DNA of 64,000 bases from Colwellia sp. M166 (GTDB taxonomy: Bacteria; Pseudomonadota; Gammaproteobacteria; Enterobacterales; Alteromonadaceae): contig NZ_CP040755.1 of the NCBI RefSeq assembly GCF_024585285.1, positions 1,240,001 through 1,304,000 of the forward strand. Reading direction: 5' to 3'. The first letter of the stretch is position 1, and each line of letters starts with the position of its first letter. The position numbers and the translations under genes are program-made. This document shows, one piece after another, positions 9,345 to 46,273 of this stretch. The notes under the pieces were generated by a model, which had not been told where the DNA came from, ran no database searches, and saw only the letters and a list, made by a program, of their open reading frames with translations.

Positions 9345-9363
9345 TTTACTTTAAGAGTATCAT

Positions 9364-10553: not shown

Positions 10554-10584
10554 AACCATAGATAATCATCATTTTTAATGACTT

Positions 10585-11021: not shown

Positions 11022-11106
11022 GCTAATTTTGAGGTAACAAGGCGAAAAATGTCCGTTGTAGTTATCTACTTTAACAATTTCCAACGATGTTATATTGAAA
11101 ATTAGC
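11022..11106. repeat. Imperfect inverted repeat
   Basis: Exact 9-bp arms GCTAATTTT and AAAATTAGC about 67 bp apart, with weaker pairing inside (for example GTAACA / TGTTAT). Possibly the remains of a small non-autonomous element; no second copy seen in the window. Confidence 0.4.
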
Positions 11107-11312
11107 CATAGCCTCTTGGGTTGAATTGAAAAAACACCTATATTTCCAGCAACCAAGAGCCTTACATTACACTTTGGTTACAATTTTAATTTTGACAATT
11201 TGCAGTTTATCGTCGATAACTAAACAAAGTAAATGACATCACTAGGCGGTTTATACGGATATTTCGACTTAGCTAAACACTTGAAGCAGGATATTGGCAA
11301 ACAAGGAATATC

Positions 11313-11642: not shown

Positions 11643-11789
11643 AACCCATAACACCTTGGCAATAATACCGGTTTAATGCGGGTTACATCAGCTAACTAAT
11701 TTCCAGTTAGAACAGATTAAACTTCTGTTTACTAATACATTTTGATAGCCTAACAACATTATCCTCTCGTATTCATTAGGCTTTGAGCA

Positions 11790-13049
11790 ATGCCATCACC
11801 AACCTTTAAGCAAGCAATATTTAATCGCCGCATGCTAATTTGTATTTTTACCGGTTTTAGTTCTGGCCTGCCTTTATTTATCCTTTATCAATTAGTGCCC
11901 GGTTGGTTACGCTCAGAAGGCGTCAGCTTAGCCGAGATTGGCTTATTCTCACTGATTGGTATTCCTTATGTATGGAAGTTCATTTGGTCGCCCCTGATGG
12001 ACCGCTATTCTTTGCCTGTACTCGGTCGCCGACGCAGTTGGATGCTGCTCACTCAAGTGCTACTACTGTTTTCGATCGCTGCTTTTGGCTTTGTTGATCC
12101 GGTGATGAATATTTGGAGTGTTGCCTACTTAGCTGCCGCTGTAGCATTTTTTAGTGCCAGTCAAGATATTGTACTTGATGCTTATCGTCGTGAATTACTG
12201 CCAGAGCACGAACTTGGCTTAGGTAACTCAATTCATGTACAAGCTTATCGACTTGCAGGCTTAGTACCCGGCTCTTTAGCCTTTATTCTAGCTGATCATA
12301 TTAGCTGGCAATCGGTATTTATTATTGTTGCCAGTTTTATGTTGGTAGGTATTTTCTTGAGTCTATCCATCAAAGAGCTGAAAAATGCACCGCAAGCACC
12401 AAAAACCTTACAGGATGCTATTGTCTTACCATTCAAAGACTTTATCAGTAGGAAAGGCACTAAAGCCGCACTGCAAATACTGGCATTTTTATTTCTCTAT
12501 AAACTCGGTGATAGTATGGCAACCGCTTTGCAAACCCCCTTTTTTATTGACCTTGGGTTTACAAAAACCGAAATAGGTGTGGTAGCTAAAACTGCCTCAC
12601 TGATCGCAATGACCATAGGCTTGGCCATTGGTGGTATCGTCATGATTAAACTAAGTATTAATCGTGCTTTATGGCTATTTGGCGTTGTTCAAATAATCAG
12701 TATATTAGGCTTTGCTGCCTTAGCAGAAATTGGTCACAACACCTACGCTTTAGCCATGGCGATGGGCTTTGAATATTTAGGTGTTGGTCTTGGCACTGCC
12801 GCTTTCACCGCTTTTATCGCTAGAACAACTAATCCAGCCTTTGCAGCAACACAATTTGCGTTGTTCACTGCGTTAACCGCACTACCACGAACCTTTGCTA
12901 ATGCCACCACTGGTGTTATTGTCGAGCAAGTAGGCTGGACTAATTTTTACTTTTTATGCACGGTATTAGCTATACCTGGTATGTTAATGTTATTTAAGGT
13001 CGCACCTTGGCGAGAACCCGCTAAGCAAATAACTCAGGAGACAGTATAA
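11790..13049 (+). CDS. ampG: Muropeptide permease AmpG (MFS)
   Basis: Inner-membrane major facilitator with about 12 hydrophobic segments and 419 aa. AmpG imports anhydro-muropeptides for cell-wall recycling and so influences AmpC-type beta-lactamase induction. Family signatures include the N-terminal LICIFTGFSSGLPLFILYQL, WLRSEGVSLAEIGLFSLIG, the loop WSPLMDRY...GRRRSWM, and ATQFALFTALTALPRT. A 56-aa membrane protein starts 2 bp after its stop. It is probably shorter than E. coli AmpG, which has extra C-terminal helices, but similar to other AmpG homologues. Confidence 0.92.
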   Translation: MPSPTFKQAIFNRRMLICIFTGFSSGLPLFILYQLVPGWLRSEGVSLAEIGLFSLIGIPYVWKFIWSPLMDRYSLPVLGRRRSWMLLTQVLLLFSIAAFGFVDPVMNIWSVAYLAAAVAFFSASQDIVLDAYRRELLPEHELGLGNSIHVQAYRLAGLVPGSLAFILADHISWQSVFIIVASFMLVGIFLSLSIKELKNAPQAPKTLQDAIVLPFKDFISRKGTKAALQILAFLFLYKLGDSMATALQTPFFIDLGFTKTEIGVVAKTASLIAMTIGLAIGGIVMIKLSINRALWLFGVVQIISILGFAALAEIGHNTYALAMAMGFEYLGVGLGTAAFTAFIARTTNPAFAATQFALFTALTALPRTFANATTGVIVEQVGWTNFYFLCTVLAIPGMLMLFKVAPWREPAKQITQETV

Positions 13050-13051
13050 AC

Positions 13052-13222
13052 ATGATCCGACTATTTTTCCTCGTACCAATAATTATGTGCGCTATTTGGT
13101 ATTGGTATTTAAAAAATAACAACTATACCATCAAGCAAGGCTTGAAAGGATTTGCTTATATATTCGCCTTTAATGGCACTATTATCGCATTCTTTGTTCT
13201 CATGCTGTTCCTGACAAATTAA
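13052..13222 (+). CDS. Small membrane protein, 56 aa, coupled to ampG
   Basis: A short frame reading MIRLFFLVPIIMCAIWYWYL, then KNNNYTIKQGLKGFAYIF and a second hydrophobic stretch ending FFVLMLFLTN. So there are two predicted membrane helices joined by a short polar loop. The ATG lies 2 bp after the ampG stop and an RBS (CAGGAG) lies inside the end of ampG, so translation is very likely coupled. A terminator follows at 13286. I do not recognise the family; the context suggests a partner of AmpG, but this is inference. Confidence 0.75.
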   Translation: MIRLFFLVPIIMCAIWYWYLKNNNYTIKQGLKGFAYIFAFNGTIIAFFVLMLFLTN

Positions 13223-13285
13223 CGAATGTTGGAGTCTGGCAGATTTTTCCTGATGTCTTGATAGCAAAACTTTATTGCCAAAGAT

Positions 13286-13311
13286 AAAAAAGCCACAACA
13301 GTGGCTTTTTT
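13286..13311. terminator. Bidirectional terminator between ampG operon and the DUF1232 gene
   Basis: AAAAAAGCCAC-aaca-GTGGCTTTTTT: perfect stem with A and T runs, serving two convergent genes. Confidence 0.9.
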
Positions 13312-13352
13312 AAATATCTAATATTAGCTAAAGCTAACAGGGAAATTATCAA

Positions 13353-13898
13353 TTAGAAAATTGAACGAAATCCTGAACGACCACTTCGACTTGAGCGGCG
13401 ATTTCTCATTCGACTATGTAACTCTCTGCGCTTTGCGTCCAACCACTCATCACGAGTAACCGCAACATCACCCTTACGGTTTTCTTCACGAGTACGATAA
13501 GCACAAAACTCAAGAAAGGCTTCAATGTCATCTTTAAGTTCTTCAGCAACCAACTCAATCATAATAGCATCGTCTAAAAAACCTAACACCGGAATATGAT
13601 CAGGTACTAAATCTTCTGGATCACTAAAATACGCTAGCGCACTTAACACGTCTGCACGTTCTTCTTCAGGTATGTTCCATTCAGAATCTTCAATCATTGC
13701 CACTAAAGTTTCTAACTTTTGAATTCTTTCGCTGACAAATACTGGCACATCGCCTTTAACATCTTGGCTAAGACTTTTTGCGTTTGCTAAAATTTCTGCT
13801 TCACTTAAACTTTTGGCGCCCGACTTTGATTCTCTCATCACATTACGAAAATGCTCTAAATCTGACTCTTTCAACTCGAAGGTAACTTCAAATGCCAT
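13353..13898 (-). CDS. YkvA/DUF1232 domain protein
   Basis: 181-aa protein. The central segment with DVLSALAYFSDPEDLVPDHI and PVLGFLDDAIMIELVAEEL is the DUF1232 (YkvA-like) signature: a hydrophobic helix with the P-D-x-P and G-x-x-D-D pattern. The N-terminal half is acidic and helical; the C-terminus is basic and Arg/Ser-rich (RRSSRSGRSGFRSIF), perhaps for contact with nucleic acid or phospholipid. Function unknown. Single gene, with RBS AGGAG upstream, ending at the shared bidirectional terminator. Confidence 0.85.
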   Translation of the reverse strand: MAFEVTFELKESDLEHFRNVMRESKSGAKSLSEAEILANAKSLSQDVKGDVPVFVSERIQKLETLVAMIEDSEWNIPEEERADVLSALAYFSDPEDLVPDHIPVLGFLDDAIMIELVAEELKDDIEAFLEFCAYRTREENRKGDVAVTRDEWLDAKRRELHSRMRNRRSSRSGRSGFRSIF

Positions 13899-14138
13899 TA
13901 TAATTCTCCTGCTATTTGGCTTGCTTTGATCAGTAACCCTCTAAATTTAACAGAACATTATCAATACAGCACTATAGATATAGAAAATATTAACGATTAA
14001 TTGTAAATAAAAGCAATTTTTATTTACATTCTTTCAAATTACTGTAATTTTTAGCAAAAATAGGCATCAAAATTCAATTTGCGCCAAAAAAAATCAATGC
14101 TATTATGCTAAGTAACTGTTTTATTTACTGCAAATATT

Positions 14139-15380
14139 ATGCTTGACGATAAAAATAACAACGGCGTTGCATTATTAATAGCCGATAATAAAACTGACGC
14201 TGTCATATGTGAAAATTGCCACGCGAAAGTAAGTGGCTCTTACTGTAGTCAATGTGGTCAATCAATTGAGTCAACTATAAAGTATTTTTGGAGCGTGCTG
14301 TTGCACTTGCTCGATGATATCTTTAGTTTTGACTCTCGTGCATCTAGAACATTAAAGCCTTTACTATTAAAACCAGGATTTTTAACTCAAGAATATATCC
14401 AAGGTAGGCGTGTTCATTACGTACCACCACTGCGGCTTTATTTATTCATCAGTATTATTTTCTTCATTTCACTTAATTTTTTCGCCGTTGACGGTAAAGA
14501 TCAGCTTGTACATGAGCAAAGAATGGCTGCGCCTTTAGAACAAGTCACTCAATATATTGGGCAGCTTGAGCATTCACTTAACGATTTATCACTAATCAAA
14601 AAAAAGTTACAGCTAGAAAAAATTAAGCAATATAAACAATATCAAGCAGATTTATCGCTAAGCAGCGCATCAAAAGCATCTGAATTAACTAAAGAAATTG
14701 TCGAATACGAATTTAGTATTATTAATAATGAAGAGCCGATATCAGATAAAAGTCAGCAAAAATTGCGTGACTTGAAGGAGAAATTAGCACAAATAAAAAT
14801 AGATAAAACCGCTTCAAACGAAGTAAGAAATTTCTCCATTGCCAATAACGATGACGGCTCACTAACCTTTGACTTTTTATCTGATGAAAATAATAAACGT
14901 TTAAACACTAAAATAGCAACATTAGAAAAAAAGGGCCTACAGGCACTAAACTCTGATGCTAGACCGTTAATAAAGCAATCAATTAGCAAGCTACCGCAAT
15001 TAATGTTTATTTTATTACCTCTTTTCGCCCTGATTCTTAAGATATTTTATCTCTTTGCTAATCGTTTATATCTTGAGCACCTTACCGTAGCACTACATAG
15101 CCACAGTTTTATTTTCTTAATCATTTTTTTAGTCAACATTCTCGAATACGGCCAAGAGCACTTAATCACCTTAATGCCTAATGTCGCTAACGGATTAGGC
15201 TATCTAGCCATGTTATTACTCGTTTGGTTACCATGTTATTTATTGCTTATACAAAAGCGTGTTTATCAACAAGGCTATCTGTTGACCTTAGTAAAATTTT
15301 CCGTTATCGGCATAATTTATTTCAACTTAATCATCTTAACAGCTATTGTGGCTTTCTTTTGGGGCCTGACCGATATCTAA
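14139..15380 (+). CDS. DUF3667 membrane protein with zinc-ribbon N-terminus
   Basis: 413 aa. Near the N-terminus two CxxC pairs (CENCHAKVSGSYCSQCGQ) form a likely zinc ribbon. The next part has the DUF3667 signature around LDDIFSFDSRASRTLKPLL, KPGFLTQEYIQGRR, VHYVPPLRLYLFISIIFF. A long charged helical region (about residues 130-270, probably coiled coil) separates the first membrane helix from several C-terminal ones. Function unknown; the zinc ribbon plus membrane anchor suggests a scaffold or sensor. Stands alone, divergent from the DUF1232 gene, convergent with lysS. Confidence 0.82.
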   Translation: MLDDKNNNGVALLIADNKTDAVICENCHAKVSGSYCSQCGQSIESTIKYFWSVLLHLLDDIFSFDSRASRTLKPLLLKPGFLTQEYIQGRRVHYVPPLRLYLFISIIFFISLNFFAVDGKDQLVHEQRMAAPLEQVTQYIGQLEHSLNDLSLIKKKLQLEKIKQYKQYQADLSLSSASKASELTKEIVEYEFSIINNEEPISDKSQQKLRDLKEKLAQIKIDKTASNEVRNFSIANNDDGSLTFDFLSDENNKRLNTKIATLEKKGLQALNSDARPLIKQSISKLPQLMFILLPLFALILKIFYLFANRLYLEHLTVALHSHSFIFLIIFLVNILEYGQEHLITLMPNVANGLGYLAMLLLVWLPCYLLLIQKRVYQQGYLLTLVKFSVIGIIYFNLIILTAIVAFFWGLTDI

Positions 15381-15458
15381 CCTAATGACTCGTTATATGG
15401 ATATAGTTACTCAGATTCTATTTAAATAGGCTCGGTATTTACGTTATATCAAGCCTAT

Positions 15459-15485
15459 AAAAAAAGCACCCTTAGGTGCTTTTTT
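15459..15485. terminator. Bidirectional terminator between the DUF3667 gene and lysS
   Basis: AAAAAAGCACC-ctta-GGTGCTTTTTT, perfect stem, T-run on both strands. Confidence 0.9.
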
Positions 15486-15521
15486 CATTATCTGCTTGAG
15501 CAACAACTACTCTGTTTATTT

Positions 15522-17063
15522 TTATTCAGCAAGTGGACGCATATGCGGGAATAAAATAACATCTTTAATGGTTGGTGAATCAGTGAATAGCATGACCAAT
15601 CTATCAATACCAATACCTTCACCTGCTGTTGGTGGTAAACCATACTCAAGTGCTTGAATATAGTCAGCATCATAATGCATTGCTTCGTCATCACCCGCAT
15701 CTTTACCTGCAACTTGATTTTGGAAGCGTTCCGCTTGGTCTTCAGCATCATTAAGCTCTGAGAAGCCATTAGCTAGTTCTCGACCGCCGACGAAAAATTC
15801 AAAGCGATCGGTAATAAATGGATTGTCATCATTGCGACGAGCTAATGGTGAAACTTCCCATGGGTATTCGGTAATAAAGGTTGGTTGATCAAGCATATGC
15901 TCGGCAACTTCTTCAAAAATTTCACAAATATATTTACCTGCACCCCAGACTTTAGACGCATCAGTTTCTTTTACGCCAACAGCTTTTGCCATCGCTTTAA
16001 GCGCGTCAAAGTTTGCTTCTGGATTACGTAAAACATTTTCATCTAAATCAGTTGAGTACTTTAATATCGCATCAACCATAGATAAACGCGTAAATTTCTG
16101 GCCAAAGTCATAAAACTTCTCTTCTACTACTTCACCATCAGAATTTTTAACTGTGTTACGAATAATTGCTGAGCCCATAACATCTTCTGCTAAAGTACGT
16201 AGCATATCTTCAGTAAGGTTCATTAAATCATGATAATCAGCATAGGCTTGGTAGAATTCAATCATAGTGAACTCTGGATTATGACGTGTTGATAAACCTT
16301 CGTTACGGAAGTTACGATTAATTTCAAAAACTTTCTCAAAACCACCAACCACCAAGCGCTTCAAGTAAAGCTCTGGTGCTATACGCATATACATTTGAAT
16401 GTCTAAGGCATTATGAAAGGTTTCGAAAGGCTTAGCTGATGCACCACCTGGAATAGTTTGGAGCATTGGCGTTTCAACTTCCATGAAATCACGGTCAGTT
16501 AAAAACTTACGAATACCATCAACTATTTTTGAACGAATTTTAAAGGTATTACGGGTATCTTCATTGATGATCAAATCAACGTAACGTTGACGATATTTCG
16601 TTTCAACATCAGATAAACCATGGAATTTCTCCGGCAATGGACGTAACGATTTAGTTAATAGCTCGTACTTATCCATGTTGACATATAAGTCACCTTTACC
16701 TGACATATGCATAGTGCCGGTAACACCAATAATATCGCCAATGTCTAACGTGCCCCAACGCTCTTTAATATCTTTTTGCACAGTTTTATGAGCATAAGCT
16801 TGAATGCGACCAGACATGTCTTGTAAGACTAGGAATGGACCACGTTTTGCCATAACACGACCAGCAATGCTGTATTCAGCAGTTTCAGCTTCAAGCGTTT
16901 CTTTATCTTTTTCGCCATGTTCAGCTTGTAAATCAGCAGCATAGTGTTTTCGATCAAACTTGTTAGGGTGACCATTTGCCGGACAGTTTTCTCGAATTTT
17001 TACTAATTTGCCACGACGCTCGGCAATCAACTTGTTTTCGTCTTGGTTTGCTTGATCAGTCAT
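15522..17063 (-). CDS. lysS: Lysyl-tRNA synthetase, class II
   Basis: Charges tRNA-Lys. 513 aa, the usual length. The N-terminal OB-fold anticodon-binding domain ([20 protein letters not shown]) is followed by the class II core: motif 1 near [16 protein letters not shown], motif 2 [20 protein letters not shown], and motif 3 [12 protein letters not shown] near the end. It follows prfB by about 60 bp on the same strand, the arrangement known from E. coli (dsbC-recJ-prfB-lysS). Confidence 0.98.
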
Positions 17064-17121
17064 TTTATTTCTCGTGTTTAACGTAATATGCTATTTAAAA
17101 AATTAAAATTAATTAAGGTGT

Positions 17122-18220
17122 TTATAAGCCAGACTTCAAACTAGCTTCTAAAAATTTGTTTAAGTCGCCGTCTAACACCGCTTGAGTATTGCGGTTTTCT
17201 ATGCCGGTGCGTAAATCTTTAATTCGGCTGTCATCTAATACGTAAGAACGAATTTGACTACCCCAACCAATATCAGATTTTCCGTCTTCTAATTCTTGCT
17301 TACCTTCATTCTGCTTTTGCATTTCCATTTCATATAACTTCGCCTTTAGCAACTTCATCGCGGTTGCGCGGTTTTTATGCTGTGAACGATCGGCCTGACA
17401 TGCGACAACAGCGCCGGTTGGTAAATGGGTAATACGGATAGCTGAATCAGTTTTATTAACATGCTGCCCCCCAGCACCAGAGGCGCGGAAAGTATCTATA
17501 CGTAAATCAGCGGGATTAATATCAATTTCAATATTATCGTCTATTTCAGGATAAATAAATGCCGAAGCAAATGAGGTATGACGACGACCACTTGAGTCGA
17601 ACGGTGATTTTCGTACTAAACGATGCACGCCGGTTTCGGTACGTAACCAACCAAAGGCATACTCACCGGTGTATTTAATGGTACAACCTTTAATACCCGC
17701 AACATCGCCATCGGTAACTTCAATGGCTTCTGTTTTATAGCCATTAGCTTCCCCCCAACGTAAATACATCCGCATCAACATTTCGGCCCAATCTTGTGCT
17801 TCAGTGCCGCCCGAGCCAGATTGGATATCTAAATAACAGTTATTAGCATCTTGTTCACCGGAAAACATTCGACGGAATTCTAATTTTTCAAGACTAGCTT
17901 CTAATGCTTGTGTTTCATCTTCAGCATCATTAAAAGTTTCTTCATCGTCAGCTTCAACCGCCAGCTCAACTAAGCCTTCAATGTCTTCACAGCCGGAATC
18001 CATTTCATCAATGGTTTCAACCACAGCTTCTAATGCGGCTCGTTCACGGCCTAGGGCTTGTGCACGCTCAGGGTCATTCCAAACATCAGCAGACTCTAAT
18101 TCACGAACAACTTCAACCAAACGTTCTGACTTTTGGTCGTAGTCAAAGGTACCCCCGAAGCATATTGGTGCGTTCGCGAATTTCTTTAATTTTATTAAGT
18201 ACTGGATTAACTTCTAACAT
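17122..18220 (-). CDS. prfB: Peptide chain release factor 2 (with programmed +1 frameshift)
   Basis: RF2 terminates translation at UGA and UAA. The gene begins at ATG 18220 ([20 protein letters not shown]), runs 25 codons to CTT-TGA-C at 18142-18148, and continues in the +1 frame as [16 protein letters not shown] to the stop at 17122. Domains: the tripeptide anticodon SPF ([12 protein letters not shown]) and the catalytic GGQ ([15 protein letters not shown]), which is methylated on Gln by PrmC in the family. An annotation that ignores the shift would start the gene near 18120. Operon neighbour of recJ upstream and lysS downstream. Confidence 0.98.
18142..18156 (-). promoter_or_regulatory. prfB programmed +1 frameshift site
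   Basis: Reads GGGGGTACCTTTGAC on the minus strand: a Shine-Dalgarno-like G-run, three bases, then slippery CTT followed by in-frame TGA and C. This is the established autoregulatory element: low RF2 favours slippage over the UGA and so more RF2. Confidence 0.96.
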
Positions 18221-18401
18221 ATGATTTTGGTGACCAAGTCACAGCTAAAGACCTAAGGGTAAAATAGTCGCGCATTGTAGCCTAATTATGCAATGAAATA
18301 AATGCTTGCTTGGCTGATCAAATCGCCTTTTTACGATATTTTTTGAGCTAAAAAACATAAATATTATTAGTAGCACTAGCCATTTATGCTGACACTAAAC
18401 G

Positions 18402-20150
18402 CTATTCTAATTGTTCGACCATTAATTGCACCGACTGCTTACCACGAAACTCATTGATATCAAGACGATAAGCAAGCTTAACTTGCTTCGCTTGATGATC
18501 AGGCCAACGTTTAATGTCAACATTAAAGGCAATGGCATCAAATATTTGCTGATCTTTTTCTACCACTAATTTCAAATGTTTTTCTCCAACAATACGTTGC
18601 TGTACTAACGTAAAGACATCATCAAATAATGGTTCAGGGAAGTTTTGTCCCCATGGGCCAGCATCTCGTAATACCTGAGCGAAGGTCAATGTCATATCTC
18701 GAGTCAGTAATTCACCATCTGAAGCTAGAACTCCAGTTAAAGCTTCTTGGCTTAACCATTGCTGAGCATATTGCTCAAATAGCATCGAAAAGCTTTCAAA
18801 TTGCTCTCTAGCTATTGATAAGCCTGCGGCCATAGCGTGACCACCAAACTTTGCAATAATCCCCGGATGTTGGCTATCGATATATTCTAATAAATCACGA
18901 ATATGTAAACCAGGAATAGAACGTGCAGAGCCTTTAATTTCATCGCTATTGTTATTTGTATCAGCAACGTTTTTATCGCTGCCTTTAGCAAAAACAATGC
19001 TCGGTCGATGATACTTTTCTTTCAACCGTCCGGCGACAATGCCAATAACACCTTGATGCCAATCAGCATGAAATAAACTAATACCGTGTGGTAAATTTTC
19101 TTCACTAAACTGTAAACTCGCGAGTACTTGCTCAGCTTCGATTTGCATGCCTTGCTCTATTTCACGACGCGCTTTATTTAAGTCATCCAAATCTGCCGCC
19201 ATCACCCTTGCCGTTGACAAATCTTTCGCTAATAAACAATTGATACCAAAAGCCATGTCATCCAAGCGCCCTGCTGCATTAATCCTTGGCCCTAATGCAA
19301 AACCAAAATCACTCGCTACTAATTTTTGTTGATTCTTACCGGCTATTTCAATTAAGGCTTGAATACCTGGCCGTGTTGCACCCGCACGAATACGTTTTAA
19401 ACCCTGTTCGACTAAAATACGATTATTAGCATCTAGTGACACCACATCCGCAACCGTCCCTAAGGCGACTAAATCGAGTAATTGCGCAATATTTGGCTCT
19501 TTAATATTTTGCTGCTCAAACCATTGCTGTTCACGTAAATACTTTCTTAATGCCAACATAAAATAGAAAGCGACCCCGACCCCAGCTAACGATTTACTGG
19601 CAAAGTTACACCCCACTTGATTAGGGTTAACAATTGCATCCGCAGGCGGCGTTGTGGCACCGGGCAAGTGATGATCGGTAACCAGCACTTGTAATCCTAA
19701 CGCTTTCGCCCTTTTAACCCCTGCCATACAACTAATGCCATTATCAACAGTGACTAAAACCTCTGCACCTTGTGATACAGCAATATCAACAATTTCAGGA
19801 GTTAAACCGTAACCATACTTGAAGCGATTAGGTACTAAAAAGTGGTGATTGCTTGAGCCAAGCATTTGTAATGCTTCCATCATGAGTGCCGTACTGGTTG
19901 CACCATCAGCATCAAAATCACCAATCACGGTAATATTTTTTTGCCCTTTTAGTGCCTGATATAAAAGTTCACACGCTTCAGGTAAGCCTTTTAATGTTTC
20001 AACGGGACATAAATGTGAGGCCGTTAACTCAAGCTGTTCTTTACAAGTAACGCCACGACGGGCATATATTTGTCGGACAATAGGATGAAGCGAACTGGGT
20101 AAATGTTCATCACTAATGTGTTCTCGACGAATAATTTCTTTTTGCATCAA
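18402..20150 (-). CDS. recJ: Single-stranded-DNA exonuclease RecJ
   Basis: 5'-3' single-strand exonuclease of recombination and mismatch repair. 582 aa, close to the E. coli length. DHH-family motifs: motif I VIGDFDADGATSTAL, VTVDNGISC, and VTDHHLPG giving the DHH metal site. The C-terminal part has the DHHA1 GG-motif region (KFGGHAMAAGLSI) and an OB-fold. It lies between dsbC and prfB on the same strand, the conserved gammaproteobacterial order, although a hairpin at 20197-20226 may partly separate it from dsbC. Confidence 0.97.
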   Translation of the reverse strand: MMQKEIIRREHISDEHLPSSLHPIVRQIYARRGVTCKEQLELTASHLCPVETLKGLPEACELLYQALKGQKNITVIGDFDADGATSTALMMEALQMLGSSNHHFLVPNRFKYGYGLTPEIVDIAVSQGAEVLVTVDNGISCMAGVKRAKALGLQVLVTDHHLPGATTPPADAIVNPNQVGCNFASKSLAGVGVAFYFMLALRKYLREQQWFEQQNIKEPNIAQLLDLVALGTVADVVSLDANNRILVEQGLKRIRAGATRPGIQALIEIAGKNQQKLVASDFGFALGPRINAAGRLDDMAFGINCLLAKDLSTARVMAADLDDLNKARREIEQGMQIEAEQVLASLQFSEENLPHGISLFHADWHQGVIGIVAGRLKEKYHRPSIVFAKGSDKNVADTNNNSDEIKGSARSIPGLHIRDLLEYIDSQHPGIIAKFGGHAMAAGLSIAREQFESFSMLFEQYAQQWLSQEALTGVLASDGELLTRDMTLTFAQVLRDAGPWGQNFPEPLFDDVFTLVQQRIVGEKHLKLVVEKDQQIFDAIAFNVDIKRWPDHQAKQVKLAYRLDINEFRGKQSVQLMVEQLE

Positions 20151-38182: not shown

Positions 38183-38590
38183 CTATTTTTCAGTAGCTTG
38201 CCAATAGCTTGCTTCGATTTTATTGCCATCAAGGTCGATAACAAAACAACCATAATAGGGTGCACCGTATTCAGGTCTTACACCCGGAGCGCCATTACAA
38301 CGAGCGCCCAATGCGATAGCACAATGATAAAACTCATCAACTTGTTGCTTACTTAAGGCAACAAAACCAAAATGAGTGCCATTGCCTGTAGTAGCAGGCA
38401 GTTTATCAAAAGGTTGTTGTAACCAAAATTCAGGATAGCCCTTGCCATAGGCTAATGCTTGTTCATATTCGCTAACCAAATCTATACCTAAAGTTGCTAG
38501 GACGGGCGTATAAAAACCTTGTGCTTGTGCTAAATTATTAGTACCAATAGAGGCATGACAGATACTGCGTAAACGACGATGCTCAATCAT
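38183..38590 (-). CDS. VOC (glyoxalase/bleomycin-resistance) family protein
   Basis: 135 aa, one vicinal-oxygen-chelate domain pair: ICHASIGTNNLAQAQGFYTPVLATLG at the start (read with the break after QAQ), GTHFGFVALSKQQVDEFY in the middle and YYGCFVIDLDGNKIEASYW at the end. Many such proteins are lyases or dioxygenases; the substrate cannot be told. By my reading of the island, this gene was originally the next minus-strand gene after parE. Confidence 0.9.
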   Translation of the reverse strand: MIEHRRLRSICHASIGTNNLAQAQGFYTPVLATLGIDLVSEYEQALAYGKGYPEFWLQQPFDKLPATTGNGTHFGFVALSKQQVDEFYHCAIALGARCNGAPGVRPEYGAPYYGCFVIDLDGNKIEASYWQATEK

Positions 38591-38609: not shown

Positions 38610-38643
38610 AAAAAGGTATAGCCTTATGACACTATACCTTTTA
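38610..38643 (-). terminator. Terminator downstream of the island; probably the original parE terminator
   Basis: On the minus strand: AAAAGGTATAG - 10-base loop - CTATACCTTTTTTG. It lies about 75 bp beyond the left copy of the parE 3' end at 38719. Before insertion it would have followed parE directly; now it would end transcripts of the DUF262 operon. Confidence 0.8.
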
Positions 38644-38718
38644 TTAACAATATTAATTATCAACAATATGTAGAAACAAAACGATTACTCAACAAAACTT
38701 TGCTTGTTACCCTTGAAG

Positions 38719-38737
38719 TTATGCTAATTCAACCATA
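38719..38737. repeat. attL-like direct repeat (copy of parE 3' end)
   Basis: TTATGCTAATTCAACCATA, identical to 44384-44402. It lies in non-coding DNA here. The match stops on both sides exactly at these limits. Confidence 0.8.
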
Positions 38738-38746
38738 AGCTGACAA
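38735..38746 (+). repeat. Inverted repeat inside the island, left
   Basis: ATAAGCTGACAA reading inward, followed by TAAAATA. Paired with 44355-44366, where the same 12 bases read inward on the minus strand followed by AAGATAT. Possible recombinase-binding arm. Confidence 0.5.
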
Positions 38747-39014
38747 TAAAATAAACCCTACAACCCTTAGCATTAGTTTTATTGTACTATGCTAAGTAGT
38801 GACACGCCTTAAAGAAAGCAACCCTACCCAGCCTCTAGTACGCAATAAGAACTAAACCAGTGGAGATATTAACTCCAACTTAACGTGATTTATAACATAA
38901 GTTCAGATTCAGGCTTCCCATCAACATTATAAGCTATTGTTAAAGTCAGATGCCGCTTCTTGTACACCGACTTTTAGGACTTCTAAGCAAGTGCCCGTTA
39001 AGCTTTTTAAATTT

Positions 39015-39048
39015 CACTGAGTGGAAACAAACTTAGTAGAATTGGTAT
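39015..39048. repeat. Dispersed palindromic repeat, copy 2 (half)
   Basis: 34 bp matching 10856-10889 at 31 positions, starting CACTGAGTGG and ending AATTGGTAT. Only one half of the palindrome is present. It lies just after the end of the DUF262-HNH gene. Confidence 0.7.
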
Positions 39049-39079
39049 AATGCTTGCTCGCTGGTTTGACTGTTCATAA

Positions 39080-41134
39080 TTATTCCTTGTCACCATAATG
39101 CACAGCTAACGTACTTAACATTTCTTTCTGATGCTGCTCTATCTGTTTGTTTTTCCAATTATTTTGTTCTTTTAATAATTTGAACATGGCTTTTAATTTT
39201 AATGAATCGTATTGTGGCTTAGCTTCAAAATCGACCAATTTCTTTTTAACCGCTTGGTTGCTGTATGAAGAGTTTTCACCTGGGCTTAGTAGTACTAAAT
39301 TACCAAATGCATCTAAGAAATCTCTTTCCAATATATTTTGGTGCTCTTCATGCTGGGGGTATACATGCTCAACAGAATTTTTCGCGGTTATACGATATTT
39401 CTTAAATTGCTCTAGATGCCTATCCGATTCTTGTTTCCATAATACATACTCCAGTTTTTGAAACCAGTAATGCTCAAAGCTGGTTCCTCTAGCTTCTGCA
39501 AAATAATCAACGTTTGCTTGCCAAGACCTGACTGCCGGTTGCTGTTGTTTTGCTTGCTTAAAACTGGCTGTTTTTTGAGTTTCAGATTTACTGGCCAATG
39601 ATAGACCATTATCAATTTTTTCAAGTAGCGCTATGGCTTGTGGATCTTCGGTGACGTTGCCATTTATTAACCCTGCAATGAATGGAGTAATCCAGTATTG
39701 AGCACTGCGTTCACCAGTGAAATTGCGCACACTTTGTAGCATAACCAATTCATTAAGTTCTTTCTGAGTACGGTTAATGTACCATTTCCCACTTGATTCA
39801 CTGCGTGACAGGTAGGTTAAACGCAATTGCTCATCATCACTATCATCACGCTCAACCCATTTAACCACCCAACGATCAAACTGATAGCGCACCTGCCATA
39901 AAATCTTAATAAAGTATTTCACTTCATCTTCGCTGGCTTGCGTTAATGGTTCAAAAGTTTCCAGTAATTTATCGGCGTGTACGCGAGGCAGTACATCGCC
40001 CGAACCGTCATCTCGTTTTGCTAAGTAAATGCGATAAGCGTGAATAAGTAATAACGCAAAGCTGATGATTGGGCGACAATAAACGGTTTCGGTTTCTAAA
40101 TCGTATGTGCCAGTATCCTGCTCGTTGTCATTATCTTTGTCTGCGCTTTCGTCATTATTTTTAACGCTACCTTTATCGCTACTCGATGTGCTTTCTTTTA
40201 ATTGTTCGGCTAACTGCATAATGGTTAAACCATGCTTTTGCTGCGTTCTCCCAGCACTCTTCACAAATAGTGCTTCATCAAAACAAGACAAATGCTCTGC
40301 TTTAATATCATTCCACGGTGCATTAGGGAAAACTTTACGCACATTACGTTCAAAGTAGTTTTCCATGTGCTCACAAGCTAGCCAAATTGCATCAAACAGA
40401 GGTTTATCAGCAGATACTTGCTTAAGCAGTTTTGATTTTAAAATATCAGCCTGTTCAAGCTGTATACCTGCGGTATTCATCGTGGCAAATAAGCGATTTA
40501 AATCCATTTGCTTAGGTACTATGTTATTCACCCATTGCACATTATTAAAAATATAATCGCCAAGCAAAATACGATCTTCTTGCTTTAAGGCTTTTACTTG
40601 TTGCTCTAATACTTGTAATGCAGCATAAATACGCTTTAAGTATGGGTTTTCACCAATGGCTTCTAGCCCTGGGAAGACATAATCATCTAGGCCAGCCAAG
40701 CTACCTAATAAATGTTGAACCTGATCTCGAATAGTAAATTGCAATCTCGGCTGTTTTTTAAAAGCCGCGATATCAGCAATACTCGACTCTACTTTTGCCA
40801 TTTTAAAGGCAAGTGCAATAAGCATTAACGTGGTAGTGCGTTGCTGCCCATCAATTAATTCATAAATGCCATTACCATCGTCGTCATGCTCTATGGAGGT
40901 AAGAACTGTACCAATAAAGTAATTAGCTTCTTCGGCGATACGTGCATCATCAATATCTTTAAATAACTTTAATACTGCCTCGTCTGGCCAAACATAAGGC
41001 CGTTGGTAACTAGGTATACAAAATTGATATTCATGAGTTTGAATGTAATTTAACGTCAGTACTTGAGTTTCAACATTATGCTGTATCACATGCTTTTCCT
41101 CAGCATTGCAATGGCTAACAAATAAATTATCCAT
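39080..41134 (-). CDS. DUF262-DUF1524 (HNH nuclease) protein, GmrSD/RloF-like
   Basis: About 684 aa. The N-terminal DUF262 (ParB/Srx-like nucleotide-binding) domain shows IPSYQRPYVW near residue 40 and the signature DGQQRTTTLMLIALAF near residue 98. The C-terminal DUF1524 HNH domain shows NSVEHVYPQH and FGNLVLLSPGENSSYSN, the expected His and Asn. Related proteins (GmrSD, BrxU, SspE) are modification-dependent or phage-triggered nucleases. Residues about 315-345 form a Ser/Asp/Asn-rich linker. ATG 41134 overlaps the preceding gene's stop (ATGGATAA) and has GGAGAG upstream, so the pair is translationally coupled. Confidence 0.9.
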   Translation of the reverse strand: MDNLFVSHCNAEEKHVIQHNVETQVLTLNYIQTHEYQFCIPSYQRPYVWPDEAVLKLFKDIDDARIAEEANYFIGTVLTSIEHDDDGNGIYELIDGQQRTTTLMLIALAFKMAKVESSIADIAAFKKQPRLQFTIRDQVQHLLGSLAGLDDYVFPGLEAIGENPYLKRIYAALQVLEQQVKALKQEDRILLGDYIFNNVQWVNNIVPKQMDLNRLFATMNTAGIQLEQADILKSKLLKQVSADKPLFDAIWLACEHMENYFERNVRKVFPNAPWNDIKAEHLSCFDEALFVKSAGRTQQKHGLTIMQLAEQLKESTSSSDKGSVKNNDESADKDNDNEQDTGTYDLETETVYCRPIISFALLLIHAYRIYLAKRDDGSGDVLPRVHADKLLETFEPLTQASEDEVKYFIKILWQVRYQFDRWVVKWVERDDSDDEQLRLTYLSRSESSGKWYINRTQKELNELVMLQSVRNFTGERSAQYWITPFIAGLINGNVTEDPQAIALLEKIDNGLSLASKSETQKTASFKQAKQQQPAVRSWQANVDYFAEARGTSFEHYWFQKLEYVLWKQESDRHLEQFKKYRITAKNSVEHVYPQHEEHQNILERDFLDAFGNLVLLSPGENSSYSNQAVKKKLVDFEAKPQYDSLKLKAMFKLLKEQNNWKNKQIEQHQKEMLSTLAVHYGDKE

Positions 41135-42662
41135 GTTGCTCTCCATTATTTCTTAGCTTGCTTACCTGATCCATACCAACCGTTCCATGTCCTAATGGAA
41201 GAATAAAAGCATCTAACTCTGCGGTATATCTGTTAGCAAGTTCTTGCGCTGAAAGGCTTAAAATCACATCTATTTCAAGGTAGTTTAACACGTTAAATAT
41301 AAAACGTTTTTTAACGCTATTTTTATCAACAGCTAAATTGGCAGGGTCTGTTTTAAAATGAAAACGATCTAAATAATCAAAACACATGTTGGGTGTGTAA
41401 CTGGCAGTAATCCAATCTAATACAGGGTTATCACGGACAAACGCTGATATTGAATTTTCTCTGACCGCTTTTTGATTGCTTACACGTGGTGAATAAATTA
41501 CCCGAAACAGTTTTTTCGCGGCAACGTCTAATTGCTGCTCGCCAAATTGGCTAATATAAATTAGCAAGGCAGTATCGTATAAGCCTTTCACATAGCTACA
41601 ACCATCAAGTTGGCAAATCAAGTTTTGATAAAAATTGAAGAAGTTTGAAAGTGGCCCAGCCCCTTTATTAGCCCCATTAGCTTGTTTATTGATACTTTTC
41701 GTGTCATTTTTACTTTTACTGGTGAGATACTTGCTTCTCAATTGCTCAAAATAACTTAAGTAATGAATGGTATTAATACCACTATTTAATGGCTGTCGTA
41801 GCTCGTACCCCTGTTGCGCTTGCTTATCTATTTGACCACCATCAGCTAAGTATGCACGCTCAAATCGCCCGTAGGCGATATCATCACCTTTACCTGTGCT
41901 TTCCCCAAGTTCGTTTACCACCGCAGTTCTCACTAAATGTGGTTGACGATGAGAGGGCACATTACGGTTATAAAGCTTTTGCCAGTAGCGGCCTTTAACA
42001 AGTGCCCCTACAACGGGGTTTAAATCACCCAAGGCTTCCCACTTAGCGGCAAACTCATTTTGGTTGTGGCGTTCAATTGCTCTAAGGTGATGGGCTTTAA
42101 TAATGTCTGGGCCACTCAACCTTACACCACCGGTATTTTGGGTTTCAAAAAAACGGTAAGCATCATCTTCTGAGCGTGTGACTACCAAAGTTAAATTAAT
42201 TTTAGCTGCATCAAATGTCTCTATTTGTTTAAGGCCACTGTTTTTCAACCACGCTAAATTTTTTATGATTTGTTGTTGCGACTCAGGCGAGTCATAACTT
42301 AGGCTAAACTCCGCAGGATGTTTACCCGCTGCTGAGTTGACCAAACTTTGCATAAAGGCAATCAATGCCAAAGTCGTTAAGCGTTGCTGGCCATCAATGA
42401 TATTTAACCGACCATTTTCTGCTGACTGATGCAAAATAACACTGCCTAAGTAATAGCCATATTCAGTATCGCTATTCGCTAGATCGCTCAAAAACAACTG
42501 ATAATCACTTAGCATTTTTTTAATTTGCTCTTCGCCCCAACGATAAGGGCGTTGATACTCAGGAATGGTTAACTCGCCATGAATGTAAATTTCATTAGAG
42601 CTAACAATACTATCTTTACTGAATAACTGCGCTAAGGTACAACTTGCGACTACAACTGACAT
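41127..42662 (-). CDS. DUF262 protein without nuclease domain, partner of the downstream DUF262-HNH protein
   Basis: 511 aa. DUF262 signatures: IPEYQRPYRWGEEQI (about residue 33) and IIDGQQRLTTLALIAFM (about residue 87), plus FFETQNTGGVRLSGPDIIKAHHL. The C-terminal half lacks an HNH motif. Paired DUF262 genes, one with and one without the nuclease, recur near restriction systems; RloF of Campylobacter type I loci is a DUF262 protein. This protein may sense DNA modification or nucleotide while the downstream partner cuts, but this is inference. It starts 12 bp after the end of the hsdS remnant, so they shared an operon. Confidence 0.9.
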   Translation of the reverse strand: MSVVVASCTLAQLFSKDSIVSSNEIYIHGELTIPEYQRPYRWGEEQIKKMLSDYQLFLSDLANSDTEYGYYLGSVILHQSAENGRLNIIDGQQRLTTLALIAFMQSLVNSAAGKHPAEFSLSYDSPESQQQIIKNLAWLKNSGLKQIETFDAAKINLTLVVTRSEDDAYRFFETQNTGGVRLSGPDIIKAHHLRAIERHNQNEFAAKWEALGDLNPVVGALVKGRYWQKLYNRNVPSHRQPHLVRTAVVNELGESTGKGDDIAYGRFERAYLADGGQIDKQAQQGYELRQPLNSGINTIHYLSYFEQLRSKYLTSKSKNDTKSINKQANGANKGAGPLSNFFNFYQNLICQLDGCSYVKGLYDTALLIYISQFGEQQLDVAAKKLFRVIYSPRVSNQKAVRENSISAFVRDNPVLDWITASYTPNMCFDYLDRFHFKTDPANLAVDKNSVKKRFIFNVLNYLEIDVILSLSAQELANRYTAELDAFILPLGHGTVGMDQVSKLRNNGEQHG

Positions 42663-42674
42663 ACCACTTCCTTG

Positions 42675-43165
42675 TTAGTTAATTTCTGAGTCCACTTCTG
42701 GTACTTTGACTTTTCCGTAACGGCACTGTGGAGCAGCATCGTCAATATTGAAAGATTGTTTTTCGATATCAGTAACAATTTCATCTTGCCCTTCTCTACT
42801 TGAATAACCGATTTCAATATCTAAGAACATATGAGAATAAAATCTTAATCTTGAGAAGTGCAAACCAGTTGAGGTTTTATTGTAATGTTCGATATAGCCA
42901 ACCATTTTCAATAACCATTCAAGATAAACTGGATTGAAAATATTTAAGGGCGTTGTCGTAAAATACAACAAGCAGAACTAACAATACTGGGACGATCTGA
43001 TCCTCTCATCCATGCCCATATAACATTCATTACAAAGTCATTCTTTTGGCAGCTTTTAGAGCCACGATAATCTTCAGCAATCATAGTAACGCTCTTTTCT
43101 GAGCGAGGTGTAACACCAGTTAAATGAGATAAGTTTGTTATGTCCGCTGTGCTCCATTGGTATTC
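42675..43165 (-). pseudogene. Remnant of a type I restriction specificity subunit (hsdS)
   Basis: Two overlapping frames give one HsdS-like protein. Frame 1 (43165 to 42944) reads QWSTADITNLSHLTGVTP, then VTMIAEDYRGSKSCQKNDFV and NVIWAWM, typical of a target-recognition domain (AEDYRGSK...GDLVIN-MWAWMG). Frame 2 (to 42675) continues with NPVYLEWLL, YNKTSTGLHFSRLRFYSHMF and REGQDEIVTDIEKQ. It ends with GKVKVPEVDSEIN, which looks like an HsdS C-terminus fused after loss of the conserved coiled-coil region. The N-terminal domain is gone as well. Family assignment is by recalled motif, not by search. Confidence 0.75.
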
Positions 43166-43215
43166 CTAATAGGCAACGATTCTTTCGCTTCCTAATTTAA
43201 TTTTTAAATTTATTT

Positions 43216-44079
43216 CTAACTTGGCGCAATAGTCATACTCGCCAAATTTTCTAATTCGTTTACGTTGCTGAGCCATAAGTGATGCTCGCCACCCGTGAGT
43301 GCTGCGTGAGCACTACAATCTACGTTCCATTGGCGCATTAAATAACCCAAAAGCGCTTCTCGCACGTTTAATTCAATTTTTCCATCAATCATTGCATAAT
43401 CTAGCTCTATCGCTTTAAAGTGCTTGATAGTCGGATGTGGCACTAAGATGATTTTGTGAATGTTGTTCCACTGCTTATCAAATTCTCTTGCTTGTATTGT
43501 CGCTATTGGCTTTTCAATTTCAGTAACGTTTTGTAATCGTGTACAAACAAAGTCTCTAAAAGCTTTATTCTTTTTATCAAAAGCACGTACATGCCAGCGC
43601 TGGCCGTTATTGGCGAGACTATGTGGCACAAGAGTGCGTTTAGTTTCACCAGAAGACAATGAAACATAGTCACATGATATAGCTTGTCGATTGTTGATCG
43701 CACGCATGATGGTGGCGATAACATCAGAACTTGGATGGATTAATCTTGTAGCATCAATGCAGACATTAGATGGCGTAATTCCATTAGAAAAACCATCACC
43801 GAAGCCACGGCATAAACTGTTAAGCGTGGCTTCAGGATTGTGTTCAAATACGGGAGAAAATTGCACAGTACGGTAATACTGTTTGGTTTCGTGTTTGAGA
43901 GTGAGATTATCAGGAGCAAGTTCACGGTACAAAGTTAGGTCACGAGAACACGATGCTAGCCCTGTTTTGAAATGGTTAACTAGGTCGGCACGCGATATTT
44001 GCCCGAAAAATTGTAGGCAAAAATCAATAAAAGCAAGGCGTTCACGTTGTGCATAGTTGATATTTGTTAAATCGTTCAA
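43216..44079 (-). CDS. WYL-domain transcriptional regulator, BrxR/CapW-like
   Basis: 287 aa. N-terminal winged helix (AQRERLAFIDFCLQFFGQIS, RADLVNHFKTGLASCSRDLT), a WYL domain (about 120-200; RAINNRQAISCDYVSLSSGE, TLVPHSLANNGQRWHVRAFD) and a C-terminal WCX-like domain. Layout and length fit the BrxR/CapW group, repressors found at the head of BREX, CBASS and restriction loci. It is the first gene of the island, and an inverted-repeat operator lies upstream at 44145-44181. It would keep the downstream genes repressed until a ligand, possibly a nucleotide or DNA product, binds the WYL pocket. Confidence 0.87.
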   Translation of the reverse strand: MNDLTNINYAQRERLAFIDFCLQFFGQISRADLVNHFKTGLASCSRDLTLYRELAPDNLTLKHETKQYYRTVQFSPVFEHNPEATLNSLCRGFGDGFSNGITPSNVCIDATRLIHPSSDVIATIMRAINNRQAISCDYVSLSSGETKRTLVPHSLANNGQRWHVRAFDKKNKAFRDFVCTRLQNVTEIEKPIATIQAREFDKQWNNIHKIILVPHPTIKHFKAIELDYAMIDGKIELNVREALLGYLMRQWNVDCSAHAALTGGEHHLWLSNVNELENLASMTIAPS

Positions 44080-44144
44080 GCAACATTCACATTATTTTTG
44101 TATTTATTGACTACCAATCTAGCTGATAAAAAACAAACTGGCAA

Positions 44145-44181
44145 TCAAAATGATAATATCATTAAGATGCTATCATTTTGA
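44145..44181. promoter_or_regulatory. Candidate operator of the WYL regulator
   Basis: Exact inverted repeat TCAAAATGATA (44145-44155) and TATCATTTTGA (44171-44181). A nested AATGATA-A-TATCATT palindrome covers 44149-44163. So three copies of the half-site TATCATT lie 65-100 bp upstream of the regulator gene, as expected for autoregulation. Confidence 0.65.
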
Positions 44182-44354
44182 ATAATCATTTCTTGGCAGC
44201 CGGCCCAAATTTAACTACAACTCAAGTAAATATTGGTAAGCACTAATTACTCAGAGCAAAAGTTAAATAATCGTTTATCAGAAAAGAAAATATTTTTTTG
44301 GTGATTTTGATTAAAAACGTGTAGCTATGCTCGCCAATATAAGCAGAATATCTT

Positions 44355-44366
44355 TTGTCAGCTTAT
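44355..44366 (-). repeat. Inverted repeat inside the island, right
   Basis: Minus strand reads ATAAGCTGACAA; pairs with 38735-38746. It lies 17 bp inside the right direct repeat. Confidence 0.5.
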
Positions 44367-44383
44367 AGTTTACTAATCATCAA

Positions 44384-44402
44384 TTATGCTAATTCAACCA
44401 TA
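44384..44402. repeat. attR-like direct repeat within the parE 3' end
   Basis: Last 19 bases of parE (codons Met-Val-Glu-Leu-Ala-stop plus one base), identical to 38719-38737. Confidence 0.8.
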
Positions 44403-46273
44403 TCGCCCTTAGATTGCAACCATTCTTTACGATCGCCTGCGCGCTTTTTAGAGAGTAACATATCCATTAACTCCATGGTTTCAGCATGTTCATCAACGGT
44501 TAGTTGTACTAAACGACGAGTATTAGGATCCATGGTGGTTTCACGCAACTGTAACGGATTCATTTCACCCAAGCCCTTAAAGCGTTGCACGTTAACTTTT
44601 CCGCGTTTCTTTTCTGCTTCAATACGATCGAGTATGCCGTCTTTTTCTGCTTCATCTAGAGCGTAAAAAACCTCTTTACCAACATCTATTCTGTAAAGCG
44701 GCGGCATAGCAACATACACATGCCCTGCTTGTACCAAAGGTAAAAAGTGTTGAGTAAACAGTGCACAAAGCAAAGTCGCAATATGTAAACCATCGGAGTC
44801 AGCGTCGGCAAGAATACAAATTTTACCGTAGCGTAACCCTGATAAATCCTCGGTATCTGGATCAATACCTAAGGCCACCGAAATATCATGAACTTCTTGC
44901 GAAGCTAGAATTTGTCCAGAGTCGACTTCCCAAGTATTTAGAATCTTACCTCGTAGTGGCATAATCGCTTGAATTTCGCGATCTCGTGCTTGTTTTGCAC
45001 TGCCTCCCGCCGAGTCACCTTCGACCAAAAATAATTCAGTACGTAAAATATCTTGACTACCACAGTCAGTTAATTTACCGGGTAATGCTGGTCCTTGCGT
45101 GACCTTTTTTCGAATAATTTTTTTGCTAGCACGTAATCGGCGCTGAGCATTAGAAATACAAAATTCTGCGAGTGCTTCAGAGATATCAGTATGTTCATTT
45201 AGCCATAAGCTAAAAGAGTCTTTAACAACTCCGGTAACAAATGCCGCACACTGTCGAGACGATAAGCGCTCTTTAGTTTGCCCAGCAAATTGTGGGTCTT
45301 CCATTTTTACCGATAATATATAAGAACATTTATCCCAAATATCATCCGGTGTTAACTTGACGCCTCGAGGCAACAAATTTCTAAACTCACAAAACTCTCG
45401 CATTGACTCAAGCAAGCCTTGGCGCAAACCGTTGACATGCGTACCACCTTGCACGGTAGGAATTAAGTTTACATAACTCTCGCCTACTGATTCACCGCCT
45501 TCGGGCAACCAAGTTACCGCCCAATCAGCGGCTTCGTGTTGCGAGGTAAAGCTGCCAACAAACGGTTCTTCTGGCAAACTTTCATAACCTTTAACCGACT
45601 CTTTTAAATAATCAACTAAGCCATCTTCATAACACCATTGATATTTATTATCTTCGTTTTTATCATGGAATTTAATGGTTAATCCTGGACAAAGTACGGC
45701 TTTCGCTTTTAATAGGTGTACTAATCGACGTGCTGAAAATTTAGCTGAATCAAAATATTTTTCATCCGGCCAAAACTTCACTCGTGTGCCGGTATTACGA
45801 CGCCCCACGGTACCAGTTTCTCTTAACTCTTCAACCTTATAACCATTTTCAAAAGCCATTTCATAGACTTTACTATCGCGCCTGACAGAAACATCTACAC
45901 GTGTAGATAAGGCATTAACTACGGAAATACCAACACCATGCAAACCACCAGAGAACTGATAATTTTTATTGGAAAATTTACCACCGGCATGTAGCTTACA
46001 AAAAATAAGTTCGACCCCTGAAACCCCTTCTTCTAGGTGGATATCAATCGGCATACCTCGACCATCATCAATAACTTCCAATGATTGGTCTTTATCAAGA
46101 ATTACGGTAATATTTTGTGCATGCCCGGCTAATGCTTCATCAACAGAGTTATCGATCACTTCTTGGCCTAAATGATTAGGGCGAGTTGTATCGGTATACA
46201 TGCCTGGACGATGGCGTACCGGGTCAAGGCCACTCAGGACCTCAATGGAGTCGGAATTATATTGTTCGCTCAT
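44384..46273 (-). CDS. parE: DNA topoisomerase IV subunit B
   Basis: ATPase subunit of topoisomerase IV, 629 aa. GHKL ATPase motifs (EVIDNSVDEALAGHA, DDGRGMPID, GLHGVGISVVNALS), the transducer domain and a Toprim region (VEGDSAGGSAKQARDR, ILADADSDGLHI), ending FKGLGEMNPLQLRETTMDP and the short tail DMVELA. Start is the ATG at 46273 (MSEQYNSDSIEVLSGLDP). First in the direction of E. coli order parE-yqiA-cpdA-yqiB-nudF (transcribed from nudF). Its 3' end is the proposed integration site and is kept intact. Confidence 0.98.
   Translation of the reverse strand: MSEQYNSDSIEVLSGLDPVRHRPGMYTDTTRPNHLGQEVIDNSVDEALAGHAQNITVILDKDQSLEVIDDGRGMPIDIHLEEGVSGVELIFCKLHAGGKFSNKNYQFSGGLHGVGISVVNALSTRVDVSVRRDSKVYEMAFENGYKVEELRETGTVGRRNTGTRVKFWPDEKYFDSAKFSARRLVHLLKAKAVLCPGLTIKFHDKNEDNKYQWCYEDGLVDYLKESVKGYESLPEEPFVGSFTSQHEAADWAVTWLPEGGESVGESYVNLIPTVQGGTHVNGLRQGLLESMREFCEFRNLLPRGVKLTPDDIWDKCSYILSVKMEDPQFAGQTKERLSSRQCAAFVTGVVKDSFSLWLNEHTDISEALAEFCISNAQRRLRASKKIIRKKVTQGPALPGKLTDCGSQDILRTELFLVEGDSAGGSAKQARDREIQAIMPLRGKILNTWEVDSGQILASQEVHDISVALGIDPDTEDLSGLRYGKICILADADSDGLHIATLLCALFTQHFLPLVQAGHVYVAMPPLYRIDVGKEVFYALDEAEKDGILDRIEAEKKRGKVNVQRFKGLGEMNPLQLRETTMDPNTRRLVQLTVDEHAETMELMDMLLSKKRAGDRKEWLQSKGDMVELA

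Follow-up and report, generated by a model that had tools for sequence, protein, structure and literature searches.

In Tn7, TnsD binds the 3' end of the target gene and recruits TnsC, and TnsA and TnsB insert the element nearby with a 5-bp target duplication. Tn7-like transposons carry defence genes, restriction genes included, as cargo between their ends, as described in a published study (PMC8649781), and passages of two further papers (PMC11406308 and PMC12719977) describe Tn7-like elements, namely, I-F3 CRISPR-associated transposons (CASTs), that are directed by TnsD/TniQ to parE as their homing site. In this study, we have analyzed a stretch of 64,000 nucleotides from Colwellia sp. M166 (contig NZ_CP040755.1, positions 1,240,001 to 1,304,000; the window), in which a block of 5,658 bp (positions 38722 to 44379) separates parE from a VOC gene. 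We conclude that this block is almost certainly the relic of a Tn7-like transposon that homed to parE. The I-F3 elements Tn7017 (EasCAST) and PcCAST, in the same passages (PMC11406308 and PMC12719977), use the same target gene end; unlike them, the window copy has no tns genes and only a scrap of tnsD. An initial annotation of this DNA had noted that parE is not known as an attachment gene for a small integrase-less defence cassette; parE as a homing site of Tn7-like elements is already covered by these earlier descriptions.

The insertion at parE and its ends

The assignment to a Tn7-like transposon is based on the ends of the block, the ordered scraps of genes within it, the full relatives found at the same place, and the lack of a TnsB match in the M166 genome. 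That genome (G000) comprises 4,844,971 bp; the genomes of relatives are likewise denoted by G-codes. The features that delimit the block, all given in window coordinates, are as follows.

44384 to 46273, minus strand: parE, topoisomerase IV subunit B, 629 amino acids, the target gene (open reading frame [ORF]; Pfam DNA_gyraseB and Toprim)
44384 to 44402, plus strand: 19-mer, copy 1, the last 19 bases of parE including the stop
44355 to 44379, minus strand: parE-proximal (near) transposon end, 8-bp terminus TGATTAGT plus TnsB-type site AAACTATAAGCTGACAA
38722 to 38746, plus strand: far transposon end, 8-bp terminus TGCTAATT plus TnsB-type site CAACCATAAGCTGACAA
38719 to 38737, plus strand: 19-mer, copy 2, comprising 3 bp outside plus the outermost 16 bp of the far end
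38611 to 38642, minus strand: terminator from the ancestral gap between parE and VOC (by eye, most same-genus loci have comparable hairpins upstream of VOC)
38183 to 38590, minus strand: VOC (glyoxalase) gene, which borders the insertion on its core side (Pfam; after parE in 12 of 15 same-genus loci)

The search for parE covered 60 genomes, including that of M166 and those of 16 same-genus relatives, and the 1.5 kb downstream of the gene was compared in 15 of the latter. In 12 of these loci, parE is followed within 1.5 kb by the VOC gene (73 to 90% identical) without cargo, across a gap of approximately 100 to 200 bp that in most cases holds a terminator hairpin, as judged by eye. Two further loci have no insert and only a weak VOC match (41 and 46%); the remaining locus, that of Colwellia chukchiensis (G016), is occupied. 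The initial annotation had anticipated empty sites of this kind as well as other cargo at parE in other genomes, and both were found, the latter in G016 and other genomes with full Tn7-like elements; its terminator on the VOC side was also located, at the position listed above. Since the same-genus parE-VOC site is mostly empty, the sequence comparison identifies the block as an insertion in this lineage. The 16th relative, G011, was excluded; its parE is split over contigs C47, C36, and C49, with residues ~424 to 476 found more than once, and therefore there is an insertion or an assembly break inside this parE.

The edges of the block form an inverted repeat of 31 nt with 77% identity (38716 to 38746 and 44355 to 44385), the longest listed for the region and absent from the initial annotation. 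The near end begins 4 bp (TTGA) past the parE stop, as expected of an element that homes beside a fixed gene, and TnsB-type sites stand at the left and right block ends in inverted orientation. In the relatives, the terminus downstream of parE consists of TG or TA, six bases, and then a sequence near AAACCATAAGCTGACAA, with an inverted copy at the opposite end. A 25-bp matrix was built from the 12 ends of six delimited relatives (G016, G066, G118, G186, G702, and G107), with the window excluded. Of 127,952 positions in the window, the two highest scores fell on the edges of the block (far end, 29.2 bits, which falls within the range of the training ends; near end, 22.5 bits), and the third position scored 14.0. 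All six relatives are inserted, by eye, at most about 7 bp from the parE stop. The flanking 5 bp are identical in five of the six (G016, GCGCT; G118, TCAGC; G186, TTAAT; G702, CATCT; G107, TTGAT) and are shifted by one base in G066. Five of the six carry additional sites at both ends, lying ~21 and ~42 bp from the terminal site on the parE side of G066, G186, G702, and G107; at the same threshold, G118 has one site per end.

The end-motif and tandem-site scans covered 395 family genomes. Tandem sites were found in 12 of these, versus 3 for the reversed control, and the site motif is tied to such Tn7-like transposons, since TnsA lies within 1.5 kb in 9 of the 12; 4 of these 9 also have parE there, G107 has parE only, and G208 and G153 have neither. 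The far-end motif (1 mismatch) occurred at 22 places in 19 genomes, compared with 5 genomes for the reversed control among the matches listed; 14 of the 22 places, which may be chance matches, have no other element trace within 1.5 kb. The 12-bp arms of the inverted repeat (1 mismatch) gave three single matches and no pair in 12 stretches; the full 25-bp end is needed. Related ends with a TGTTGATAC-type terminus stand beside TnsA in G138 (C1:348922; L164) and G189 (L197), with no parE match in the stretch, and probably represent another target family.

Complete elements in relatives and remnants in the block

In G016, the gap between parE and the VOC gene holds, in order, a TnsA-like protein, TnsB, TnsC/TniB, TniQ, and a divergent TniQ/HTH protein (TnsD), followed by a WYL-domain regulator and a cargo of HsdM, HsdS, a SIR2 protein, HsdR, and a GmrSD protein. 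The G016 TnsB has no Pfam match; its closest relatives in the PDB are PseTnsAB and the TnsB of Tn6677. The full relatives of the block carry TnsA, TnsB, TnsC, and TniQ with a separate TnsD, and the same order, from parE through a divergent TnsD to WYL and cargo, is found in G016, G066, G118, and G186. G702, found by the end-motif scan, has parE-TnsA-B-C-TnsD-WYL with no TniQ match. In G334 and G293, which belong to a different family within the order, the arrangement is parE-TnsA-B-C-TniQ-TnsD, and the TnsD proteins are 32 to 34% identical. G225 has a partial TnsD and WYL at a contig end, with no parE in reach. TnsD scans identified 5 of 196 family genomes (G102 marginally), in a sample that did not contain G016, from which the query was taken; among 394 order genomes they identified 5, with G293 and G334 as new parE cases and G333 and G421 as marginal matches. 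The contig search with TnsD gave two loci only, that of C. chukchiensis, which is the query's own, and one in Alteromonas sp. 5E99-2.

No Cas domain was found in the Pfam scan, which covered part of the ORFs of G016, G066, G186, and G702 but not G118, and which therefore does not establish that the elements lack CRISPR. The analysis adds parE-homing Tn7-like elements from Colwellia and allied genera as a group that, in the part of the ORFs scanned, is apparently free of CRISPR.

Between its ends, the block retains the following genes and remnants.

44262 to 44345, plus strand: tnsD remnant, approximately codons 43 to 68, with an internal stop (76% nucleotide identity over 84 nt to G186 tnsD; blastx to TnsD of G066, G186, G118, and G016)
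43216 to 44079, minus strand: WYL-domain regulator, 287 amino acids, intact (Pfam WYL)
43116 to 43190, minus strand: hsdM N-terminal remnant (blastx 56 to 68% to HsdM starts at the G118 and G080 loci)
42675 to 42971, minus strand: hsdS C-terminal remnant, 98-amino-acid ORF (PADLOC Specificity_I; blastx to G080 HsdS)
41127 to 42662, minus strand: TgvA-like protein, GmrSD_N plus DUF7834, 511 amino acids, intact ORF (Pfam; DGQQR by eye)
39080 to 41146, minus strand: TgvB-like protein, GmrSD_N plus GmrSD_C, 688 amino acids, intact ORF (Pfam; motifs by eye)
38930 to 39089, minus strand: hsdR N-terminal remnant, two pieces in different frames (blastx 65 to 86% to two HsdR starts; nucleotide matches)

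The tnsD scrap, a remnant of a transposition gene, sits between the near end and the WYL gene, and the tnsD, hsdM, hsdS, and hsdR scraps follow the same order as the intact loci. The HsdM proteins of G118 and G080 have the Pfam domains HsdM_N and N6_Mtase, and the matched HsdR proteins have HSDR_N and SWI2_SNF2; the 98-amino-acid hsdS remnant itself has no Pfam match. The window WYL protein is 87% identical to that of G186, 76% to that of G016, 75% to those of G118 and G066, and 72% to that of G225. Among 196 family genomes, the closest WYL proteins are those of such elements (72 to 87%), except for one G118 copy (74%), and the next locus is at 61%. WYL as the sole marker was dropped; WYL relatives occur in 128 of the 196 genomes.

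No tns ORF is present in the ORF list of the block, which therefore lacks the TnsB and TnsC that an autonomous Tn7-like element carries. The TnsB query was run on nine genomes, including its own and G000, and matched seven (its own included), the positive genomes serving as controls; the two misses were G000 and G107. A TniQ family search matched no control and carries no information on the M166 genome.

Several observations weigh against this assignment. The tnsD scrap is short (84 bp). The window has no 5-bp target duplication (near flank, ATTGA; far flank, TAACT), and each of its ends has a single site rather than an array, the next matrix score being 4.8; the latter point is weaker than the rest because G118 also has one site per end. 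The 19-bp repeat at the junctions is not a family feature, since the longest string common to the parE side and the far end, which is 19 bp in the window, is 6 to 7 bp in the six relatives by the same comparison. The choice of training ends for the matrix was not blind, because the site motif was read off the near ends of the relatives while these were being aligned with the window. Finally, WYL alone is no proof of descent from a transposon, because G118 has the 74% copy outside its Tn7-like element, next to a type I operon, the G702 protein shares only 51% identity, and no WYL match was found in the stretches from G334 and G293.

The 19-bp repeat and the junctions

The perfect repeat on which the initial annotation was built is real: the 19-mer TTATGCTAATTCAACCATA is exact at both places in the window, one being the parE 3' end with its stop, and an exact search found only these two copies in the whole genome. 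No further match occurs in the window even at up to 3 mismatches (shuffle mean, 0.10). A single copy had been expected at empty sites. None of the 14 empty loci has two matches (up to 3 mismatches, 1.5-kb flank), as predicted; six have one, and three of these are at the parE end.

The annotation had taken the repeat as the core of an attachment (att) site at which a tyrosine or serine integrase, now lost or acting in trans, integrated into the parE 3' end. This reading is favored by the repeat itself, a perfect match of 19 bp placed where a gene ends, and by the 38 Phage_integrase matches in the genome, 36 of them over the family cut-off. However, both edges of the block are Tn7-like ends, the repeat extends across the far transposon terminus, the block contains a tnsD scrap, and full Tn7-like relatives, with 5-bp duplications and not att repeats, occupy the same place; we therefore regard integration by an integrase as extremely improbable. 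That a mobile element inserted at the parE 3' end stands; the 19-mer as an integrase att core is not supported. As had also been stated, no integrase is encoded among the block ORFs, in keeping with a relic without its own recombinase, and the block shows neither an integrase gene inside nor a proven att core at both ends, by which an integrase-dependent island would be recognized. The joined edges were also considered as an attP-like dyad and rejected; their symmetry is that of two inverted transposon ends. The Tn7-like assignment serves as a warning that perfect direct repeats found where a gene ends may be something other than integrase att sites.

The part of the far end contained in the 19-mer, its outermost 16 bp, is TGCTAATTCAACCATA, and the parE genes of several same-genus relatives already have ATATGGTTGAATT, which is similar to the TnsB site; a transposase-binding site may thus resemble the codons of the target gene itself. 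One explanation is that three constraints happen to coincide, namely, the TnsB site, the native parE codons ATGGTTGAATTAGCA, and a target duplication starting with the stop codon. In its favor, TATGGTT belongs to the family site and stands also in parE of several same-genus relatives, the far end agrees with the family terminus by the matrix, and the insertions of the relatives are placed at the stop codon. Against this, no matching TAACT is present in the near flank, and of 200,000 simulated ends none reached 19 bp and 6 reached 16 bp, under one set of assumptions (the end frequencies of the family, with insertions placed close to the stop codon). We consider a coincidence unlikely. The lack of a 5-bp target duplication, together with the simulation, indicates that the far end has probably been rearranged. 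Because the relatives share only 6 to 7 bp and no simulated end reached 19 bp, we put at about even the chance that repair or recombination rebuilt the far junction through a join at TATGGTT(G), the 7 to 8 bp common to the TnsB site and the parE codons. Such a join would swap the far terminus and the target duplication for a copy of the parE tail, which would be the origin of the 19-mer.

Probable decay, transposase-less elements, and the surviving putative defence genes

In the full element, a TnsD-type selector would bind the parE 3' end and recruit TnsC, and TnsA and TnsB would insert the element a few bases from the parE stop with a 5-bp duplication, leaving parE working. Deletions would then have removed tnsA, tnsB, tnsC, tniQ, and most of tnsD in this strain, along with nearly the whole type I restriction operon, whereas the WYL regulator and the GmrSD-like pair, with its putative defence activity, survive intact. 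We consider it very likely that the block decayed in place in this manner rather than arriving in reduced form. Since it has no target duplication and only one site per end, the block is probably immobile or nearly immobile.

Transposase-less elements with such ends do exist at parE. An element of 1,319 bp at the parE stop of G107 (C3, locus L182, approximately 15246 to 16564) carries three TnsB-type sites per end, is flanked by a perfect 5-bp duplication (TTGAT), and has no tns match inside it and no TnsB match in the genome; its larger ORF has a weak SLATT match, far below the cut-off. By analogy, the block may have been a nonautonomous Tn7-like satellite that reached parE already reduced and was mobilized in trans by a related TnsABCD. 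This alternative shares the Tn7-like identity with the relic that we favor, and the confidence placed in the two overlaps. The several sites and the TTGAT duplication of the G107 element, in a genome with no TnsB match, argue for it. The block, however, shows no target duplication and only a single TnsB-type site at each end, the M166 genome gave no TnsB match, and the tnsD, hsdM, hsdS, and hsdR scraps speak for decay in place, which makes arrival as a satellite very unlikely. We give a similarly low probability to the broader proposal that Tn7-like elements homing to parE give rise to mini-cassettes without a transposase, which reach parE by mobilization in trans, the window being a second, defence-carrying case besides G107; if true, satellite cassettes would use parE as a docking site. 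Elements that home to parE without a transposase of their own are not described in the literature passages searched, a body of text that mostly excludes subscription papers. Besides the group of elements itself, the analysis adds a relic that is strongly reduced yet keeps its defence genes, and the G107 mini-element, of which the latter is the more novel item.

As regards the surviving relic, its cargo differs from the defence cargo known from Tn7-like transposons in that it has outlived the transposition genes. In the published TgvAB system, adjacent genes encode a DUF262 (GmrSD_N) protein and then a DUF262 plus DUF1524 (GmrSD_C) protein, with DGQQR in both, between hsdS and hsdR; TgvAB is further characterized by the restriction of phages with modified cytosines, for which both genes are required. 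The window has the same arrangement, with hsd remnants as neighbors: domains and motifs read by eye give adjacent DUF262 and DUF262-DUF1524 proteins, DGQQR, and a His-Me nuclease motif, the TgvB-like translation having DGQQR and an H...N...N-type nuclease region. Unlike in TgvAB, the type I operon of the window is destroyed, and the likeness is one of domains and motifs, not of alignment to the named TgvAB proteins. The pair is a type-I-embedded GmrSD-like system of the TgvAB type and most likely retains the ability to restrict phages with modified DNA. A defence pair can in this way persist on the chromosome once its carrier transposon and its restriction operon have decayed. Neither the gene pair nor the WYL protein received a name from NCBIfam.

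An intact counterpart is found in G080, where WYL-HsdM-HsdS-pair-HsdR have long open frames and HsdS and HsdR flank the GmrSD-like pair. The G118 locus with the 74% WYL copy (L146; G118:C16:57000-76999, positions 2141 to 19523) has HsdM, an HsdS-like protein, one GmrSD fusion protein, and HsdR, and a Phage_integrase protein is encoded in the same 20 kb.

One further feature lies upstream of the WYL gene.

44145 to 44181, no strand assigned: palindrome, candidate WYL operator (inverted repeat listing)

By eye, G016 and G066 also have such a palindrome upstream of WYL, and G186 keeps only part of it; the palindrome is a possible self-operator of the WYL regulator. The cargo of G186 (L105) holds a second, short tnsD fragment at 16708 to 16848 besides the full tnsD. 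Just inside the far end of the G066 element (L102, 5919 to 6230) lies a 103-amino-acid ORF, with similar DNA, by eye, at the far end of the G016 element (L054), and this ORF is possibly a core gene of these elements.

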